Positions 33,001 through 39,000 of a DNA stretch of 64,000 nt are shown piece by piece; positions within the stretch are counted from its first letter, which is position 1, and the number at the start of each line of letters is the position of its first letter. The notes beneath the pieces are model-generated. The model ran no database searches, was not told the origin of the DNA, and saw only the letters and a list, made by a program, of their open reading frames with translations. The position numbers and the translations under genes are program-made. This DNA is from Patiria pectinifera (Eukaryota; Echinodermata; Asteroidea; Valvatida; Asterinidae), in the NCBI GenBank assembly GCA_029964075.1, contig CM057133.1:11866699-11930698 (forward strand), in the 5' to 3' direction.

Positions 33001-36000
33001 ATTGTTGGGTATTCCGAGCAGAACAAAAAGTGAAGCCAAATGCACTGGTCCCTGATCCCTTTGTTTGAATGGAAGGGGGAGCTGACCATTCTCGACCACT
33101 CCCATCATTCAAAAAAACTAAAATGGAACTGTCTTAAAGCATACCAGTATGCATTTTTGTTCTGAACAAAAAATTTACATTACTACATTTTTTTTCCAGT
33201 TTCAATTATATCTTCAAATAACATTCTTCACAGTGTTAAAAAGGACCTCACTTTAAAACATTTTAGTCACTGTTCTAGGGCATGATAATCTTTATGACAA
33301 TTACTTATTTTTGGCTGGGTGGGTAGGGTAGAAAATTGGAAGGAATTTTTAATTTCTGTCCCAGCTCTACAAACTCAACCAAACGCGTTACATTCACAGA
33401 GACCCAACACCACACATACACAATGCTCACAAAAAAATCTCTCAAATCATGGCACCGAGAAATCTTCTCCAAACTATCCTTCTACAAATAAAGGAGAAAA
33501 GCAAAACCAACAAATAAAAACCCAAATGCCGAGTCCAAAATGAACCCTCCATATTCCACAGACCGTTTGGTACCGGTACTGATCCACAACACCATACCTA
33601 CCGGGATGTAACTGATGTGTTTTTTACCAAAAGCCACCATCCGTTTAAACTTCTGCGACGGCATCCAATGGCGTTTCAAAAAGAATCACACATTCAAATG
33701 ACGATTTCAAACAACTTTAAGCATAAGGTCAGAAAAACATCCAAAGCATATCGGTTCTATGTCACTGAACGTCAAACTCATGTCATGAACTGGATGTTAG
33801 TGTCTCAAAATGGCGTCACCCTAGTGACAACAAACTGATATACATGTATTGGCTCTAATATCACTGTGTTATTTCCGTCTACTTAAGAATGAATTCCATA
33901 CATGGAGAGTTAATCTCCCCAACTCACCCCCTAAAAAAGGAAAGTTCATGTGGACCATTCTATAAATTTAGGGTCAAAAAAATATGACATATTTCCTGTC
34001 CCTGTTACTGTGGTTCTTTGTAATTTACCATCACAGTATAATTAAGAATGACTTTAAAAAATATTTATTTGACTGCATTGCTATTCATAATCAATCTTGG
34101 AAGATGACTGCATTAAGGAGTGCATTCAGAATTTTAACAAAAATCAAAGATGCCAGATGCAACAGGGGTAGGAAAAAAGTGGACTCCAAATTAATAGAAT
34201 GACTAGTATGCAAATTTAAAGACGTCATATTTGTGAGGCGTTCTGGCAACATGAGACAGAATTGGGCAAAGGTCAAAAATGAGAGTTTGTTGGTATAAGG
34301 CAAGAGATTAAAATTCTTGTTACAATACTGTTTGTTGCACTTCAATTGGACATTCCGTTGACAAGTTATGTCTATTTTAAGTTCACATTGATCAACATTT
34401 TAAAAAAAAAGAGTAAAATACCGAGGAAAAGGTCTTTAAGGTATCAGGTTTTGTATTCGTTAAATTGAAGATGCCAATTGTTTTTCCGGAAAAACTTTTT
34501 TTCCTATAATTTGTATTCTATTTCTTTAAAAGATATATCAAAGATTACAAATATTAATAAATCCACTACGGCCTGTGTCAAGTTCCATCTCATTTATCAC
34601 ATTTAACATAAGCAAAACAAGGTTTGGAATGTTCCTGCTCCAGAGATTTCTCGGGCAAATTGAGCTGAAAACAGGACACCTCAATAAAAGGTGAGTTTAC
34701 GTACCTTCTTGACCGTCTTGACAGCTTCAGCGGCTGGTTCGGCCTCAGTGGGCGGCACTTCCTCAGGCATGATGACCACATGATCAGCCTCGCCGGCACC
34801 TGTGCTGCTGACTGTACTCCCTCCCCCTGGGGTTCCGGTGCCTGTCTGTCCCGCGGGTTTCTGGCCTGCCGGTACCTCATCTAACAAGCACACAAAGCAT
34901 ATATCCCAATGATTTCCACAGTGTTAACATGTGGTGTTAACCCTGAACACTGTTCTCATCCACATGAGATGTAATCTCCGACTTGGTAGGTTGGTTCACA
35001 CGTGGTACTTGACTGTTGAGACAGCGAAACCTAAAACGTCTCAAGACGAGATCAGATTGTAAGCATTCTAAGACACACATTTGTGTATGGTGTAAATCAT
35101 AGACAAACTTTCTGCAGCACCTCTCATTGGTTTTGTACACAGGACTGCTCTCACTTCAGGGATGCAACTGGAAAGTAGCCAAAAACAAGGAAATTCCAAT
35201 TCCAAGATTTTATACATTATTTTTCAATTTTGAATGACGTAAAAAAGTGTAAAAGTAAAAGCAAGGAAATAGGCTGACCCAAGGAAAAATTGCCTGCCTG
35301 TCACTTTGGTACATGTCTTCCATCACAAGAAAGGCATTTCCTTGTGTGTGTGTCCTTTACTTACACCATAACATGTGCAATTCCACCTATTTTATTACCA
35401 AATGTATCTGGAAATAGTGACGGTTTGCGGTAACACCATGTGGATATCTCTTTTGGGAAGATGTGTGGTTCTGAAAAGAACCGGTTGGTTGGTAAGGTGT
35501 GTGGTTCTGAAAAGAGCCAGTTGGCTGGAAAGGTGTGTGGTTCTGAAAAGAACCGGTTGGCTGGAAAGGTGTGTGGTTCTGAAAAGAACCAGTTGGCTGG
35601 AAAGGTGTGTGGTTCTGAAAAGAACCGGTTGGCTGGAAAGGTGTGTGGTTCTGAAAAGAACCGGTTGGCTGGAAAGGTGTGTGGTTCTGAAAAGAACCGG
35701 TTGGCTGGAAAGGTGTGTGGTTCTGAAAAGAACCGGTTGGCAGGAAAGGTGTGTGGTTCTGAAAAGAACCGGTTGGCTGGAAAGGTGTGTGGTTCTGAAA
35801 AGAACCAGTTGGCTGGAAAGGTGTGTGGTTCTGAAAGAACCGGTTGGCTTGAAAGGTGTGTGGTTCTGAAAAGAACCGGTTGGCAGGAAAGGTGTGTGGT
35901 TCTGAAAGAACCGGTTGGTTGGTAAGGTGTGTGGTTCTGAAAAGAACCGATTGGTTGGTTTTACAACCAACCGGTTCTTTTCAGAACCACACACCTTCCC

Positions 36001-39000
36001 AAAAGAGATTATCCGCATGGGTGTTACCACAAACCTTCTCTATCTATACTACCACCATGCAAAGCTTCAAATCTTACAAATGTATCTAGAAAATTCATGA
36101 ATCTAGGAAGCACAAGAAGCATACACAAGTTGATCTGATGAAAAATAGGTGATCTGAAGGTGCAATTTGCAAAATGGATGTTTACAAAATGAACACCAAT
36201 CTCCTGAAAGTCACCCTCAGATGTACAAATGACAAAGAAGCTCATTATAAAAGCACACAATATGGAACCCGTCACAGATGGCTCAGTAACAAATTGTTAC
36301 ACAAATTAAATACAGTGTTAATAGTTACCATTATGGTAGAATTAACAATATTAGCTTGCTAAATATTTCCCATTGAACATACAGGTAAGCAAAGATAAAA
36401 TATTATAGATCTTTAGCATTAAAGAACATTAACCTTAACCCCTTGAGTGATTTACTAGGAGCCTTCCTCACTCTTGCAAAATCCAACACCATATGGTAAA
36501 CTCAACACCCAAACTGTTGGACTCTGATTATGGTGGCATGCCTGACCCCATGTAAAGCATAAACAGTTTAGTGTAGTACTCACTCCAACAGATTCCAATT
36601 GCCAATTAAAGTACATGTACCAATATTCATCTATAGATGGAACTTGACTGAAATACCAATGACAGAAAAATCCTAAAACAAGTTGTACAAGTTTTACATG
36701 TAAGCGTTCTATGTGAGCTACTAAGAGTGTATATCAAAGGGCGACGTAAAACTGGACAGATAATATCTCGTGTTTGAAACACGAAACTAATCATAGATTT
36801 GTAAAAAAAAATAGAAACAAATAAAAATAGAAACAAAGCTTGCTCATATTGAATTTATATCTTAACTTCAAGTTCCATTATTTTTTCGGGACCGATTTTT
36901 GTCCTTCCATTTCCCAGGTTGTAATATATCTTCACATTGCATTCCTCAAAATGATGTGATATCAATGTCCTAGGCCTTTTACACACATCTCATGGATTCA
37001 ATAAAGATATGAATTAATGATTTCAGAAGGTAGAGTAATGGTTTTGCGTAGCTAAATGCACTTTTAGCGTGGGATAGTACACGGCAGCTCTAACCTCCAC
37101 TCGTGCTGTGGGCACTTTCGGCTATTCTGTTGACACTTTCACCTAAAAGCTCCCCCAGCAGGTTGGCAACTGCCTCTGGTTCCATTTCATCACTGTCTCC
37201 AAAGAGTAATTCTGGAGAAAATGAAAGGAACCAACAAAACCAGTTGGAAACCCCACAGATATCGCATCTTTGTTGTTTTTAACTTTGATGATTTGGTTTT
37301 TTTCTTACTATACAATCTGTTCTTAGAGTATGATTCAGTTACAACTTACACAGCAGACTTTATGTTACTTGTGTCTACGATCGTTCAGTGAATATTAGCT
37401 CCCCGTGCTTTTGAATTTATGCTGACTGTACAGCATATCAGGTTGTTGTGTTCTTATTCCCAATTGAACCATCCTTTACAAAACATGGGGTCTACCAAGT
37501 GAGTGGGCCTACAGTAAATTAAACTGCTACCCATTCAACTCTGCTATTCTGTCCAACCACCTTGATAATATATCTACCTACCTAAATCTAGCCAGTTTTG
37601 GGTCAGGCCCAGGAAATATCAATGTTTGTAACGGCCTTTTGTTCATATTTGACACTTTCTCTGTCCCCCCAGCCCCCCCCACACCAGCCCACTTTATGTC
37701 AATTTGACTGCAATATGTAATGTAAGTAGGAATGATGTAAAATCTACTAAATGTTGATCTGATTATGCAGAAATGACACAACTATGACTGACAACGCTGA
37801 TCAAATCCAAGTTAAGTTATTCCGAAATATTGCAATATTCTCTGGCAAAGTCTCCAATATGAACCTACTTGTTTCATTTTTCTAGATATGGTTGAGAAAT
37901 TATTTCACTAACAAACAGCTGATGTCTTACTCGATCTTTTTACATCTACATTACATGTAACTTGACCTATGGCATCATATCATAACCTGTATCTATTGAT
38001 ACAACAATGTATATAAAAAGCTGATATTACTGTAATTTTTTTTTATTAAATTGCCTAGGTGTAGTGTAATCATTACTGTATGCATACCCTTTTTCTGTTA
38101 TTTCTCAATTCAAACGTGATCTTTTAAACACTGGTTAAACAAACCAAATTAGTGCTCACAACTTAAAGAAGTTATCAGTGAACTAACAAAAAAACTGAGG
38201 TTGTCCAAAATCCTCTTTCCATTAGTTTACCCAACTGAATCAAGAAGGGAAACTCAGGAAATGAAGACTTAAAAAATAGCCTCAAGATGTATTTTTCTAT
38301 TTGCTAGACACAAATCCCAGTTAGTCAAGCCGTCCCCTCATGGAATTGGCAAGTACATGTATGTGTTAAAGTTTATGTAAGACAAAAGTGCAGAAGGCGA
38401 TTGACAGGTATGTGTACGTGTAGGTTGTGCAATACTGCCACGTTTATGACAACACTTTTTTTATGAAGGGAAAACTGTAGCGTTCTCACTTCAAATTTGA
38501 AAACCAAAACAACGATACATTAAATTAGTGTTAATTATGAGTGTTAGTTATCCACAGCGGCCTTTGAAACTAGAAAATGTGGCTTCCCAGTTTCCTGTGA
38601 ATGATTTAGCCTATCAACACTGCATACTCTACCGAGAAAAGACATTTACAATAATTGAATGTGTAACAAGCATGCTAAGTGAAGAACAAAGGAGCCCGCA
38701 AGAATATTAAAACCCAAAAGTTTGCAGTCATGTACACAATGAGTGCCAAATTATGGTCCAATTTGATAACACACTTGTCGGTATAACATGCGTACCAGTA
38801 TGGTGCTGCAATGCTCAGTGCAAGCTGTACAATTCATGCTGTTAGTTGCATGTGGATCATTCTACAAATTTTGGGTCCTTTTGTTTTACTGTCCCTGTTA
38901 CATCTGACGTTAATGCAGTCATCTTCCTGGAGTGACTACGAAGAGCAAACTATCTACCTAACAAATTTGAAGTTATTCTCCATGATACTTGTGTAGGGAA

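Follow-up and report, generated by a model that had tools for sequence, protein, structure and literature searches.

The window analysed here, a 64-kb stretch of the Patiria pectinifera genome (G000:C5:11866699-11930698), contains a 663-bp inserted element, both ends of which look like working signals for histone-type mRNA 3'-end formation, with a stem-loop (SL) followed by a histone downstream element (HDE). From comparison with the rest of the genome (613.5 Mb searched), we put at roughly two in three (0.68) the probability that several transposon lineages adopted histone-type mRNA 3' ends and, jointly with this, that the window element consists of two inverted 3' ends of a Penelope-like element (PLE), in which a stem-loop segment afterwards multiplied to 14 copies. 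The impression of working signals comes from the parent PLE family, Mutator-like elements (MULEs) and a probable DDE-transposase family, which place the SL, often together with an HDE matched to that of the host, after coding frames. Histone 3' ends are generally regarded as private to replication-dependent histone genes, and that unrelated transposons carry the same signal is a result beyond the view of an earlier note on this DNA, which had described the window element from its letters.

Histone-type signals at both ends of the window element

The earlier note had reported, at 35423-36035, a transposon core of fourteen minus-strand hairpins and one inverted copy, and this arrangement was recovered as a tandem array with a 36-bp unit, followed by a single exact hairpin on the plus strand (Table 1). 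The inserted element was found to be larger than that core: a script search identified 15-bp direct repeats flanking it, identical at 14 positions, and the element is therefore taken to span 663 bp. With these target duplications, and with ends that match PLEs, the placing of the motif in a mobile element was supported. The statement that every stem and loop position agrees with the histone consensus held for 11 of the 14 minus-strand hairpins, which read GGTTCTTTTCAGAACC; one of the remainder has a broken pair (35503-35518) and two have a 3-nt loop (35827-35841 and 35898-35912). When the window was searched with GGYYCTTTTCAGRRCC, allowing up to two mismatches, 14 matches were obtained against 0.29 expected, 12 on the minus strand and one on the plus strand within the element, and one at 25267-25282.

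The Rfam model Histone3 (RF00032) reached its gathering threshold at exactly two places in the window, and these were the two ends of the element (Table 1), so that the covariance check that the note had proposed supported its identification of the motif as a histone 3' SL. The internal units of the array scored lower (11 reported at 18-32 bits, and the two with a 3-nt loop not reported by Rfam), because both ends continue into ACACA(T/C)CTTCCC-AAAAGAGAT, the HDE. The note had recognised no HDE, which is correct for the internal units, since only the leftmost unit of the array has one after it, but not for the ends, at each of which AAAAGAGAT follows the SL after 12 nt. The array arose by local multiplication of the SL, the HDE not being included. 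That it was invented by the window element alone was ruled out, as the ends match PLE ends, and Rfam microRNA matches in the array and in other loci, all below gathering, were taken as inverted-repeat artefacts.

Exact SLs lying 5-35 nt apart occurred 21 times in the genome, seven times in the window array, six in an array on C13 (46-bp unit), twice in an array on C21 (51-bp unit, the units containing the HDE) and six times as single pairs; tandem SL pairs are thus present in C13, C21 and MULE loci, and local duplication of the SL is recurrent. A full match to the window element was given by the window copy only, among 40 candidates scored.

The parent family of Penelope-like elements

The exact 16-mer SL of the element is present in 2679 copies in the genome (1307 and 1372 on the two strands), and a reversed control sequence in none. 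Among the 100 places listed it often occurred as a minus/plus pair about 1.7-1.8 kb apart, and one such pair (L010) was found to have 172-bp inverted ends that are 94% complementary. The frame at this locus has a C-terminus reading GVYKIPCQCGKVYIGETGR, in which a GIY-YIG motif can be recognised by eye (GVY..YIG..R); no Pfam or NCBIfam match to a GIY-YIG endonuclease was obtained for the PLE frames. A genome search with the L010 C-terminus gave 150 scored matches, and among longer frames of the family RVT_1 exceeded its cut-off of 29.6 in L083 and L084 (37.8 and 38.3 bits). The first 100 SL sites listed all fall within the first 6.9 Mb of G000:C1, a higher density than the genome mean (2679 per 613.5 Mb), and the flanks of several of them are nearly identical, which would fit amplification in larger units.

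PLEs are described as having a tandem organisation and pseudo-long terminal repeats (pLTRs), together with a hammerhead motif and, in some copies, a tail of 30-40 bp (PMC11167929). The PLE ends of this genome likewise comprised tandem (L078) and inverted (L010) pLTR-like copies, with both short and tailed ends; in the tandem locus the 3' end of one copy runs straight into the beginning of the following frame, ATGCAAAGCCTCAAATCTTAC... Alignment to the PLE locus L076 showed 79% identity over 109 columns for the right end of the window element (E 1e-19) and 87.5% over 64 columns for the left, and the element is accordingly a non-coding, non-autonomous PLE derivative. Its right end extends into CCACCATGCAAAGCTTCAAATCTTAC and its left end stops short of it. 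The same combination of one short and one tailed end was seen in L011, L057, L087 and L088, with target duplications of 11, 11, 10 and 13 bp, respectively; the duplication is clear in the window element too, none was found at L009, L062/L063 or L064, and further copies were ambiguous.

Eight PLE genes were sampled by protein match from the 150, and seven had a hairpin 3' of the frame, the eighth being a copy without the end. In the three genes of subfamily I the exact SL was accompanied by an HDE (exact in two, with one mismatch in one), and these ends scored 39.3-40.5 bits; the four genes of subfamily II are considered below. Related loci picked by the exact SL gave 14 Rfam matches over gathering in seven of eight, L011 falling below. 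Contrary to the proposal that the element itself had captured and amplified a histone 3' end, the SL, with or without the HDE, was inherited from the 3' end of this parent family.

Comparison with the histone genes of the same genome

For the genome-wide Rfam search 75 of about 130,000 first-look candidates were scored, and 50 of these 75 matches were fetched, 30 as loci and 20 more; histone genes were found through this search, so that any lacking the signal would be missed. Among the loci over the cut-off were genes for H4, H3 and H2A, recognised by tblastn, and for H1, recognised by PF00538 in L110 and L027. All 11 host histone loci carried the SL as GGCTCTTTTCAGAGCC and an exact HDE, AAAAGAGA, placed 12 (two loci), 13 (eight) or 14 nt (one) after it, and in 10 histone genes the SL began 26-37 nt after the stop codon. 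The spacing in the window element (12 nt at both ends, with AAAAGAGAT) is within the host range; DDE-family loci and those of PLE subfamily I likewise had 12 nt, and the MULE loci with an exact HDE had 12-13 nt. The PLE and histone SLs differ at one stem pair, and the change is compensated (C-G to U-A).

Among all 2679 PLE-variant SLs in the genome, an exact HDE within 8-18 nt was present in 626, against none in the reversed control. The host stem variant followed by AAAAGAGA within 10-15 nt gave 221 copies, with none in the control, and the places listed included both histone genes and transposons. Column identity was examined in 43 distinct ends that had not been chosen for their HDE, from which four of subfamily II type were set aside; in the 39 PLE-type ends used (among them one misplaced match and two units from inside arrays), the nine HDE columns were 85-95% identical compared with 46-62% for four columns of the spacer, and an HDE with at most one mismatch was present in 34.

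A dispersed repeat (L031-L054 and similar, e.g. G000:C1:1007029-1007074) was also encountered that carries a degraded 3' half of a histone H1 gene with its SL and HDE. The H1 part is about 83% identical to an H1 gene over 395 bp and was seen in 24 of 24 fetched loci; the repeat is at least 3 kb long, two copy pairs being about 97% identical over the whole locus.

The same 3' end after MULE and probable DDE-type transposase genes

The 20 further fetched Rfam matches lay after H3 or H4 genes (five), in H1 clusters (two), in the H1-fragment dispersed repeat (one), after MULE-like C-termini (five, one of them degraded), after a second protein family (four) or near no clear frame (three). Among the MULE frames, one of 644 aa and one of 620 aa passed the PF10551 cut-off of 27.6 (43.4 and 55.2 bits, respectively); the longer (L101) is followed by an SL and an exact HDE, and the shorter (L119) by an SL without an HDE. 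C-terminal transposase pieces gave no Pfam family over cut-off.

So that the choice would not depend on the signal, 20 MULE genes were taken from 68 protein matches by C-terminal protein similarity only, with loci already known from Rfam, some C-terminal copies and fragments excluded; 19 of the matches reach position 198 or beyond and one reaches 194. An SL with at most two substitutions was found within 221 bp in 14 of these genes (13 exact, one with a single substitution), compared with 4 in 10,000 mononucleotide shuffles. All 14 were reported by Rfam at E up to 0.1, and six of the 20 genes were over gathering. An exact HDE at 12-13 nt was present in five of the 14. Two tandem SLs, 31 or 36 nt apart, were seen in five of the 14. 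The distance from the stop codon to the SL was 9-67 nt in four transposase loci (L113-L116), with 9, 16 and 40 nt in the three MULE loci measured. Four short MULE fragments (L149-L152), outside the count of 14 in 20, all had the SL, with no HDE seen.

The second transposase family has 77 genome matches and a weak DDE (ISAzo13-like) similarity. Eleven C-terminal matches were sampled from the 77, none previously found by Rfam, and two of them had an SL, both with an exact HDE: L138, which is 69% identical and has the exact SL, and L139, which is 91% identical over its piece and whose SL has two substitutions that break two pairs. Many DDE-family and MULE matches lie on G000:C7, as does a cluster of SL+HDE sites near 14.8 Mb, one of whose members belongs to the H4 gene L107.

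The 3' end of one MULE (L122) and the left end of the window element have a common spacer, ATCTTCCC, before AAAAGAGAT. This spacer is weakly conserved and also occurs in related PLE-type ends, and the sharing hints at an exchange of 3'-end modules between unrelated transposons. One further SL+HDE (L030, G000:C13:9799074) lies shortly downstream of a short frame that ends in a PIP-box-like QRKITDFF; the frame appears pogo/Tigger-like by eye, with no Pfam family over cut-off. Two dispersed SL+HDE sites (L161 and L162) had no histone, PLE, MULE or DDE match.

Stem co-variation, SLBP and U7

Twenty-three distinct SLs were hand-picked from histone, MULE, DDE and PLE sources. In these, 97.8% of cells were paired; pair 3 was CG in 15 and UA in eight, and pair 4 was UA in 18, CG in four and broken in one. 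Neither the covariation score (0.253) nor the number of cells changed on both sides (12) was reached by any of 500 shuffles. These figures agree with selection acting on the hairpin in RNA, the relatedness of the sequences weakening the statistics.

A gene for the stem-loop binding protein, SLBP, was located as two pieces of PF15247, both over cut-off (G000:C5:12124789-12125269), one of which has a stop codon inside the translated stretch. It lies on the contig of the window, about 194 kb to its right. The presence of this gene was read directly from the genome, as were the SL and HDE sequences, their spacing and recurrence, the co-variation and the position after stop codons. Nematode histone loops are CTTT or CTTA (PMC1924863), and for this reason binding of SLBP to the CTTC loop of subfamily II is conceivable.

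Other features of the window

The coordinates of the element and its parts are collected in Table 1, with those of a second PLE-derived end, of subfamily II type, which matched the PLE II pLTR region at 53.7% over 54 aa (tblastn). Tandem repeats occupied 35 rows in the window. They include a 50-bp unit repeated eight times at 41607-42006, the unit containing the palindrome TTGAGGTGTACCTCAA, and long arrays of similar-looking short units at 44944-45475 and 53833-54603 (AGACCAGTCACA; TCACAAGTCCAGTCACAAGTAAA).

Table 1. Coordinates of the inserted element, its parts and a second PLE-derived end in the window
Feature	Position	Strand	Details
Whole inserted element	35415-36077	.	663 bp; target duplications and PLE matches
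Left target-site duplication	35400-35414	.	aaatgtatctggaaa; 14/15 identical to 36078-36092
Left-end complete histone 3'-end signal	35443-35487	minus	RF00032 37.1 bits (gathering 34)
Left-end signal, parts	SL 35467-35482; HDE 35446-35454	minus	spacer 12 nt; HDE AAAAGAGAT
Tandem array	35454-35958	minus	36-bp unit x 14.1; one SL per unit
Right-end complete histone 3'-end signal	35968-36012	plus	RF00032 36.4 bits
Right-end signal, parts	SL 35973-35988; HDE 36001-36009	plus	spacer 12 nt; HDE AAAAGAGAT
Tail	36034-36077	plus	5' untranslated region and opening codons (CCACCATGCAAAGC..) of the PLE frame; tandem PLE copies show the same
Right target-site duplication	36078-36092	.	aaatgtatctagaaa; pairs with 35400-35414
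Second PLE-derived end, subfamily II type	25222-25284	minus	exact SL 25267-25282; no HDE

Alternative explanations

A number of observations weigh against the adoption of histone-type ends by these transposons, and two of those on the PLEs, the form of the subfamily II hairpin and a neighbouring hammerhead-like motif, would be expected if the hairpin were a structural part of PLE RNA, a neighbour of the ribozyme or a site for a PLE protein, that had converged on the histone SL with no link to SLBP. All four sampled genes of subfamily II have a hairpin of the same stem, but its loop is CTTC and an HDE is lacking; three of them scored 21.3 bits, and Rfam did not report the fourth at E up to 1. 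The hairpin can therefore exist without the full signal in this subfamily, whose open frames are the longest (up to 896 aa). The PLE hairpin also lies just downstream of a hammerhead-like motif (CTGANGA..GAAAC-like, by eye), which makes a role in assembly of the PLE ribonucleoprotein possible; in 16 loci, Rfam gave no hammerhead match up to an E of 1. A lizard PLE requires, as its template, RNA further downstream (PMC11167929), which in a PLE histone-type cleavage would remove, and 2053 of the 2679 exact PLE-variant SLs are without an exact HDE. A purely structural hairpin is nevertheless unlikely, as subfamily I has the exact HDE at the host spacing, the SL, often with the HDE, also follows genes of the MULE and DDE types, where a PLE protein is lacking, and the stem changes are compensated.

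Outside the PLEs, the points on the same side concern the completeness and the recognition of the signal. The HDE of the MULE genes has one mismatch and a shorter spacing of 9 nt in four of the 14 positives and is lacking in five; the SL is absent from six of the 20 sampled MULE genes, mostly more distant relatives (35-48% identical to the query, compared with 42-58% for the positives), and from nine of the 11 sampled DDE-family genes, in copies at 28-37% identity. The DDE label is itself weak, at 18.3 of 200 bits with NCBIfam and 14.1 of 26.9 with Pfam, both below the curated cut-offs, and a solved-structure search with the protein gave no match. Two of the co-variation measures, compensated pairs (2) and further pair types (2), were reached by 327 and 500 of the 500 shuffles. 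For U7 snRNA the best Rfam result was 27.5 bits (E 0.17), with no match over cut-off, and a pattern search gave 21 matches against 24 in the control; at three candidate loci (L017, L089 and L091), none of them convincing, the 5' end could pair with AAAAGAGAU.

The transposons might alternatively have taken histone ends by recombination or template switching and have carried them since as neutral passengers. The dispersed family with the H1 fragment, its SL and HDE present in every locus fetched, exists, so capture of histone ends does happen, and the ATCTTCCC spacer common to the left end of the window element, PLE-type ends and the MULE L122 is suggestive of exchange. Passengers would not be expected to keep stem variants that differ by compensated pairs, and the SLs of the MULE and DDE-family genes stand at a distance from the stop codon (9-67 nt) close to that in histone genes, some of the frames before them being intact; we therefore regard mere carriage as improbable. 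Much less probable again is the proposal, made in the earlier note, that the array acts within the pre-mRNA to titrate SLBP or to control how the RNA of the host gene is processed. Fourteen sense hairpins, 11 of them exact, do lie in one intron, and other arrays exist (on C13 and C21), but the internal units are below gathering and without the HDE, the window copy gave the only full match among the 40 candidates scored, and conservation could not be shown; titration received no support. The host itself is a minus-strand gene with C2 domains, which two of five minus-strand frames tested pass, so that the sense orientation stands, and its naming as a ferlin is by eye with one sub-cut-off domain match. 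Finally, an unrelated palindromic satellite resembling the histone SL by chance, for which one might point to the abundance of tandem repeats in the window, is refuted by the covariance scores, by the HDE at host spacing and by the reversed-pattern controls, which gave 0 matches in 613.5 Mb.

A possible route of expression and its consequences

The adoption of histone-type ends by several lineages thus being the preferred reading, it is somewhat better than an even chance that elements of three or more unrelated classes, namely PLEs, MULEs and a DDE-type family, replaced polyadenylation with the histone 3'-end pathway, convergently or by exchange, and so tied their expression to replication. 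In histone mRNAs the U7 small nuclear ribonucleoprotein pairs with the HDE and cleavage 4-5 nt after the SL yields an mRNA without poly(A) (PMC7026596); SLBP, the protein bound to the hairpin, aids both processing and translation (PMC1924863). We infer the corresponding use of SLBP and U7 by the transposons, the coupling to S phase and a benefit to the element: SLBP would bind the transposon SL, the U7 particle would pair with the HDE, cleaving the RNA 4-5 nt after the SL, and transcripts of PLE subfamily I, MULEs and the DDE-type family would end like histone mRNA, without poly(A). Such mRNA would then be made, translated and degraded with S phase. A histone-type ending of these transcripts with replication-linked expression appears likely. 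For the PLEs, cleavage would yield mRNA but not template, because the lizard PLE needs RNA beyond that point (PMC11167929), and cleaved and uncleaved RNAs could divide the roles of mRNA and template between them. The window copy is probably passive; its left-end signal is the only complete one in sense for the host gene, in which it may cause weak premature 3'-end formation at most.

If this is correct, mobile elements would have a cell-cycle-locked, poly(A)-free route of expression, and the transcripts would be invisible in ordinary mRNA-seq and other poly(A)-based RNA surveys. Transposition would be linked to S phase, with competition for SLBP and U7, and intronic copies would place histone-type cleavage sites in host genes. 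The elements would also supply naturally occurring variants of the SL+HDE signal, on which the rules by which histone 3' ends are recognised could be tested.

Relation to known systems

A search of the open literature, by titles and abstract openings, with most subscription journals and preprints outside its scope, gave no paper linking histone 3' ends with transposons. The signal resembles the 3' end of replication-dependent histone mRNA (RF00032) in its 6-bp stem, UUUC loop and ACA-rich 3' flank, and in the HDE of the element, AAAAGAGA(T), at 12 nt, where the histone genes of this genome have 12-14 nt. It differs in the PLE stem, GGUUC/GAACC rather than the host GGCUC/GAGCC, by one compensated pair, and in that the transposon signal follows retroelement or transposase frames and occurs in inverted pairs and tandem arrays.

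The parent family is like PLEs of the Poseidon/Penelope type, such as PAc of the green anole (PMC11167929), in its reverse transcriptase frame, its target duplications, its pLTR-like copies, both tandem and inverted, and its optional tail of about 30-40 bp. A GIY-YIG-like C-terminus, by motif, and a hammerhead-like motif, by eye, may be further points in common. It differs in a histone-type SL, in subfamily I with an HDE, that is placed after the hammerhead-like motif and ahead of the next frame, an arrangement not described in the portion of PMC11167929 consulted. The MULEs resemble others of their kind (PF10551) in having a transposase domain over cut-off in two intact frames, and are unlike them in that a histone SL, in some cases accompanied by an HDE, follows the stop codon, and in the tandem SLs of five of the 14 positives. 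The window element, short and non-coding with inverted ends and a tandem core, recalls foldback elements and those like miniature inverted-repeat transposable elements with tandem cores, from which it is set apart by ends that derive from the 3' end of a retroelement and carry RNA-processing signals. The parts of this system are therefore known, and it is their combination that appears to be new.

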